From NCBI GenBank assembly GCA_900696455.1, contig CAADGB010000106.1, positions 1-36,786 on the forward strand: DNA of 36,786 nucleotides, written 5' to 3'. A program made the position numbers and the translations under genes. Source of the DNA: an uncultured delta proteobacterium (GTDB taxonomy: Bacteria; Myxococcota_A; Polyangia; Haliangiales; Haliangiaceae). The notes under the pieces are model-generated. The model was not told where the DNA came from, did no database searches, and saw nothing but the letters and a program-made list of their open reading frames with translations. Below, in pieces: positions 17,619 through 17,987 of the stretch; position 1 is the stretch's first letter, and every line of letters begins with the position of its first letter.

Positions 17619-17975
17619 TCACACCAGGCGGGCCCACGCCTCCGGCGCGACGCCGACGATGACCCGGCCGCCGGCGACCACGATCGGCCGGCGCAGCAGG
17701 TTGGGCTCGGTCACCACGGCGCGCGCGAACTCGGCGGGCGGCGGTGGCGTCCGCGCCCAGCCCCGCTCCTTGGCCACGGCGTGGCGGGTGTTGAGCACCG
17801 CGGCGACCCCGCCCGCCCCGGCCACGATGGCCTCGACGGTGGCGGCGTCCAGCGGCTTGCGGGCGTAGTCGATCTCGGTCAGGTCGAGCGGCAGCTTGCG
17901 CAAGGAACTCCTCGCGTCGCGGCAGCTCGTTCAAGTGGACTTGAGGTAGAGGGTGGCGGCCGGGCGGGCGCTCAT
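17619..17975 (-). CDS. Candidate selenoprotein: Spx/ArsC-family thioredoxin-fold protein with in-frame TGA
   Basis: Read from ATG 17975 with TGA (17933-17931) as selenocysteine, this is a 118-residue protein. It begins MSARPAATLYLKST, then U15-T-S-C18-R-D-A-R, and continues in the same frame to the stop at 17619. The start matches the TLYxSPSCTSCRKAR pattern of Spx/ArsC proteins, with TGA at the first Cys of CxxC. Downstream signatures agree: DYARKPLD, VLNTRHAVAKERGW, EPNLLRRPIVVAGGRVIVG. A hairpin with a suitable loop follows the TGA (listed separately). Starting at the internal TTG 17903 would give a 94-residue protein lacking strand one and the whole active site. Spx and ArsC use this cysteine for redox control or oxyanion reduction; which applies here is open. 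No strong ribosome site is seen. Alternatives are a nonsense mutation or sequencing error. Confidence 0.75.
17899..17916 (-). promoter_or_regulatory. SECIS-like hairpin after the in-frame TGA
   Basis: On the minus strand CGCGAGG (17916-17910) pairs with CCTTGCG (17905-17899), seven pairs including one G-U, around the tetraloop AGTT. Twenty-one bases separate the TGA from the loop, and the second loop base is G. Both fit what is described for bacterial SECIS elements (loop roughly 16-37 nt after UGA, a G in the first two loop positions). A lower AGCT/AGCT pairing (17927-17924 with 17896-17893) could extend the stem. Confidence 0.55.
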
Positions 17976-17987
17976 GGCGGCACGCTA

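Follow-up and report, generated by a model that had tools for sequence, protein, structure and literature searches.

The window, i.e. the whole stretch of 36,786 nt analysed here, carries on its minus strand a frame that runs from position 17975 to 17619 and translates as MSARPAATLYLKST-TGA-TSCRDARSSLRK...NLLRRPIVVAGGRVIVG...ARLV-TGA, with one internal TGA (codon 15) and no other interruption. The features of the locus are the following:

17619..17975, minus strand: coding sequence of the candidate selenoprotein (118 aa), with ATG at 17975 and a TGA stop at 17619-17621
17931..17933, minus strand: TGA codon of the predicted Sec15, the U of the UxxC active site; TGA or TGC/TGT in every clade homologue examined
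17922..17924, minus strand: codon of Cys18, the presumed resolving Cys of UxxC; an invariant column of the family alignment
17899..17916, minus strand: predicted bacterial SECIS hairpin, 7-bp stem CGCGAGG/CCUUGCG with an AGUU apical loop at 17906-17909
17885..17929, minus strand: extended lower stem of the SECIS, less conserved; a predicted fold (RNAfold, -25.5 kcal/mol)
17982..17987, minus strand: TANNNT (TAGCGT) -10-like element, beginning 12 nt before the ATG; proposed from sequence only

The preliminary description of this DNA had proposed a frame starting at ATG 17975, and the translation reproduces its coordinates and motif exactly: the protein has a complete ArsC/Spx fold, and the TGA opens its U15-T-S-C18 active site. 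When this codon is read through, residues 10-115 match the Pfam ArsC domain (PF03960; E-value 2e-11, 44.5 bits against a gathering cut-off of 24). As the same description had stated, plain ORF calling starts instead at the internal TTG 17903 and loses the active site; the product is 94 aa long, and the TTG sits within the 3' arm of the hairpin.

The AlphaFold model of the protein (mean pLDDT 93.5) superimposes on Spx (1z3e; Z 15.8, rmsd 2.2, 112 residues aligned) and on YffB (1rw1; Z 15.4, rmsd 2.7, 111 residues aligned), and ArsC-type proteins are also among the best matches of solved structure. Because the structural scores of Spx, YffB and the ArsC-type proteins are tied, the fold alone cannot pick among them; by sequence, the nearest solved structure is Spx (profile E-value 5e-20). 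Fold and sequence together place the protein closest to Spx and YffB. The label 'Spx/ArsC family', under which the protein was first presented, is right for the fold, but neither a regulator of the Spx kind nor an enzyme that reduces arsenate follows from it. YffB, an ArsC family reductase, is alike in fold and shares 23% identity with the window protein, which falls short of the YffB model PRK10853 (20.6 vs 121 bits). The fold and the motif suggest that the protein is most likely an oxidoreductase.

One alternative is that the protein acts as an Spx-like transcription regulator that binds the C-terminal domain of the RNA polymerase alpha subunit (alpha-CTD) and uses the U15-C18 selenenylsulfide as a redox switch. 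Besides being the best solved-structure match by sequence and fold, Spx of Firmicutes shares with the window protein the CTSCR(K/D)AR motif (CTSCRKAR-like), the STR/NTR arginine (R64, corresponding to Spx R60), the LLRRPI segment with R96 (Spx R92) and the VG(F/Y) ending. In Spx, R60 and K62 serve activation, K62 being required for full activation, and G52 contacts alpha-CTD (PMC2801614). However, K62 is not conserved in the window's family, which has Ala, Glu or another residue instead, and the G52 region is shortened by a one-residue gap, which makes the counterpart of G52 ambiguous; the window protein has Sec in place of Spx Cys10, lacks the C-terminal tail of Spx, and scores far under the cut-offs of the Spx/MgsR model TIGR01617 (36.7 vs 75 bits) and of the Spx model PRK01655 (40.1 vs 123 bits). 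We regard a regulatory role as unlikely, and equally improbable would be its wider implication, a Sec-based regulator of the Spx type outside Firmicutes that throws a selenenylsulfide switch on RNA polymerase.

The R773 ArsC arsenate reductase (1i9d, 1jzw) combines a catalytic Cys in a CxxS motif with R60, R94 and R107. The window protein could be such an enzyme with Sec in place of the catalytic Cys, as it has the Pfam ArsC fold and the Arg of the RPI motif (R96, equivalent to ArsC R94), and reviews name related selenoproteins 'arsenate reductase'. However, Arg is absent from the sites equivalent to ArsC R60 and R107, the active site is UxxC rather than CxxS, the score against TIGR00014 (ArsC) is 35.4 bits with a cut-off of 106, and the neighbouring genes that were examined included none for arsenic resistance. 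We have turned this candidate down on catalytic residues and score, and give it only a slight chance. An Spx/YffB-like oxidoreductase remains our preferred reading.

Selenoproteins with a UxxC motif in this fold have been described before. The 2008 survey of the Global Ocean Sampling selenoproteome reported 'Arsenate reductase 2' (cd03032, UxxC, 42 sequences; PMC2398784), which, like the window's group, has an ArsC/Spx domain and was recognised as a bacterial selenoprotein from Sec/Cys pairs; the window's group differs in coming from Myxococcales-related genomes, and the two were compared by published description. A UxxC 'arsenate reductase-like protein' also figures in reviews (PMC9312934) and is now tied to the family NF041106 (PMC13188914). 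NF041106 (ArsC_rel_Se_1, 'ArsC family (seleno)protein') resembles the window's group in its ArsC-like fold, UxxC motif, hairpin after the TGA and phylum, but has WYYHRKGUTSC and LRAP where the window's group has KSTUTSC and RRPI, and forms a separate clade on a long branch of the tree. Membership of NF041106 was ruled out by score (24.1 bits for the window protein vs a cut-off of 85) and by the tree, and an NF041106 search of the window's own genome gave no match at 1e-12. As the window protein lies below this cut-off and in a different clade, and neither it nor any of the relatives scanned in detail passes an NCBIfam cut-off, the window's group is apparently a new, unnamed subfamily of the known UxxC ArsC/Spx-like selenoproteins, the 2008 set having been compared by description. 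Literature searches on Spx-type selenoproteins with SECIS elements and on the selenoproteomes of Myxococcota found nothing relevant.

Proteins above the NF041106 cut-off were found in 77 of the 379 genomes of the phylum (L071-L095), and in none of the approximately 25 genomes with the window's subfamily; a genome of the same genus (G026) has NF041106 instead. It is possible that the two families replace each other functionally, a comparison confounded by ancestry. We also noticed a third group of Sec-containing proteins, of the ArsC type (L066, L067, L069 and L070, around locus position 1525 on the coding strand), with the motif LICK-[RK]-T-U-STCRKAVALL ... RPI ... GRPP and its own hairpin after the TGA, GCAAGGCGGUCGCCUUGC; one member (L067) scores 90 against TIGR00014, with a cut-off of 106.

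The window's own genome (G000) and four others of its genus (G023, G024, G027 and G028) have TGA at the codon homologous to codon 15, as do genomes of other families, other orders and one other phylum. TGA is kept in 22 of 38 further homologues of the clade, one of which belongs to Planctomycetota, and the other 16 read TGC or TGT, so that with the window counted the clade comprises 23 TGA and 16 TGC/TGT genes; the expectation that homologues would have Cys or TGA at position 15 is thus borne out. A search of a species-level genome collection revealed two loci with TGA at the same codon, one in Myxococcales and one in Planctomycetota. At the order level, 19 of 35 genomes gave a match, with a single in-frame TGA in 16 genomes (the window's own counted) and TGC in two close homologues, and a search of the 379 genomes of the phylum added further Sec and Cys members. 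On these counts the recurrence of TGA across genomes is far beyond chance. Its conservation in independent genomes rules out both an error of sequencing and a nonsense mutation of recent date. When the Sec label is mapped on the tree with all families shown, 9 changes are counted, at least 4 of them forced by well-supported branches; judged from this tree, Sec and Cys have switched several times. In the family alignment U15, C18, R19, R22, R64, R96 and P97 are invariant if Sec is counted as Cys. One genome (G112) contains a Cys copy (L051) and a TGA copy (contig C82:7499-7822) of the subfamily together.

The 5' arm of the hairpin begins 17 nt past the start of the UGA, and the distance from the UGA to its apical loop is 21 nt, inside the range of 16-37 nt published for bacterial SECIS elements (PMC10778597). 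The loops of the Sec genes are AGUU or GGUC, and distant members with GGUC have changed stem bases with pairing retained. Over 20 distinct rows of Sec genes, 95.7% of the cells are paired, and the covariation score is 0.414 as compared to 0.199 for shuffled alignments, with none of 500 shuffles reaching the observed score; sliding the pairing partner leads to a sharp drop in covariation. In the Cys homologues (n=16) only 36.6% of the cells in the same columns are paired, which at best equals the slid versions. Resampling of synonymous codons gave p=0.0095 for the hairpin of the window, with a median p of ~0.01 for the Sec genes and 0.66 for the Cys genes. From this analysis, the hairpin after the UGA is a bacterial SECIS that is present only with the TGA forms. 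In the distant Sec homologues L046, L049, L057 and L059 the hairpin is shifted or imperfect and the loops differ, and recognition by SelB may have drifted there. A SECIS model searched against the window's own genome returned the window hairpin as the only clear match (63.5 bits; all others E>0.1), a score that shows uniqueness and not independent discovery, as the model was built from the same family; no further selenoproteins were revealed by this search. Standard ORF calling would fit a pseudogene, or a nonsense mutation that has left a short gene with its start at TTG 17903, but this reading is refuted by the comparison of homologues and has practically no chance of being correct. The same TGA recurs in 23 genes of two phyla, the homologues are conserved before as well as after it (TLYLKST being kept upstream), in the genus comparison dN falls well short of dS before the TGA and after it, and the conservation of the hairpin that follows exceeds what coding requires.

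The genome of the window (G000; 7.98 Mb in 554 contigs) was searched for selA, selB, selD and selC, a check put forward in the preliminary description, and all the corresponding components were found: SelA (467 bits), SelB (293 bits, above the cut-off), SelD (296 bits) and a tRNA-Sec with the anticodon tca (UCA; 70.7 bits). The Sec trait of this genome is therefore complete. The gene of SelD has an in-frame TGA at the Cys/Sec position of its active site (L020:1531-1533, RLTQYARGGGUAAK), so SelD itself is likely to be a selenoprotein. SelA was detected in 21 of the 23 genomes with the Sec form, as compared to 9 of the 15 with the Cys form only; the two Sec-form genomes in which it was not found (G003 and G027) are fragmented assemblies of about 1550 and 1770 contigs. 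A code in which UGA is read as Trp or Gly, or simple readthrough, would equally leave the frame open, but is hardly credible, because the residue in the homologues is Cys and never Trp or Gly, TGA terminates the window gene and many of its homologues, and a complete Sec machinery with a SECIS is present. With TGA and a matching hairpin kept in the relatives and the full machinery in the genome, it is strongly supported that the in-frame stop at the active site is a selenocysteine codon and that the gene encodes a real selenoprotein that has been overlooked. The candidate selenoprotein of the preliminary description is thus upheld by the machinery, the recurrent TGA, the Cys homologues and a covarying SECIS limited to the TGA forms, and none of the three objections that the description had named was borne out.

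The alignment of the genus members begins at the start codon. In 14 of 33 homologues a TANNNT box sits at -12 or -13 relative to the start codon, as against only 4 such boxes in the rest of the 60-nt upstream region, and most homologues show no Shine-Dalgarno sequence there. As a -10 box 12-13 nt before the start would put the transcription start on or beside the start codon, the mRNA of the selenoprotein is probably leaderless. The neighbours of the gene, a protein with an Lnb_N domain and an uncharacterised convergent gene, are common to the genus only; outside the genus no conserved neighbour genes were found, and the neighbours vary by genome and give no functional lead. At one homologous locus (L030) an ORF that by eye resembles a reverse transcriptase adjoins the selenoprotein gene upstream.

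Taken together, the locus quite probably encodes a stand-alone, 118-residue, Spx/YffB-like selenoprotein oxidoreductase with SECIS-directed Sec and a U15-C18 selenenylsulfide. The sequence itself shows the TGA and its conservation, the SECIS, the machinery and the predicted fold; we infer Sec insertion, the enzyme chemistry, the reductant and leaderless transcription as follows. The gene would be transcribed from its own promoter, probably into a leaderless mRNA, and during translation the hairpin would recruit SelB with Sec-tRNA(UCA), leading to Sec at position 15. The U15 selenolate, at the N-terminus of helix 1, would serve as the nucleophile, and C18 would resolve it with formation of the selenenylsulfide, with R96 and Pro97, both in the RRPI loop, completing the active site. 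Most likely the enzyme would reduce a substrate that is a thiol, a disulfide or some other oxidised form of sulfur, and would itself be regenerated by thioredoxin or by the thiols of the cell.

Our analysis adds a well-supported selenoprotein subfamily, which standard annotation truncates past the active site. Gene finders are likely to miss its members, as no curated family model searched covers the subfamily. Its Sec and Cys relatives form a clean set, in which the SECIS appears and vanishes alongside the TGA; given the several changes between Sec and Cys in the tree, the group is well suited to testing which advantage Sec has over Cys in a protein of the Spx/ArsC fold.
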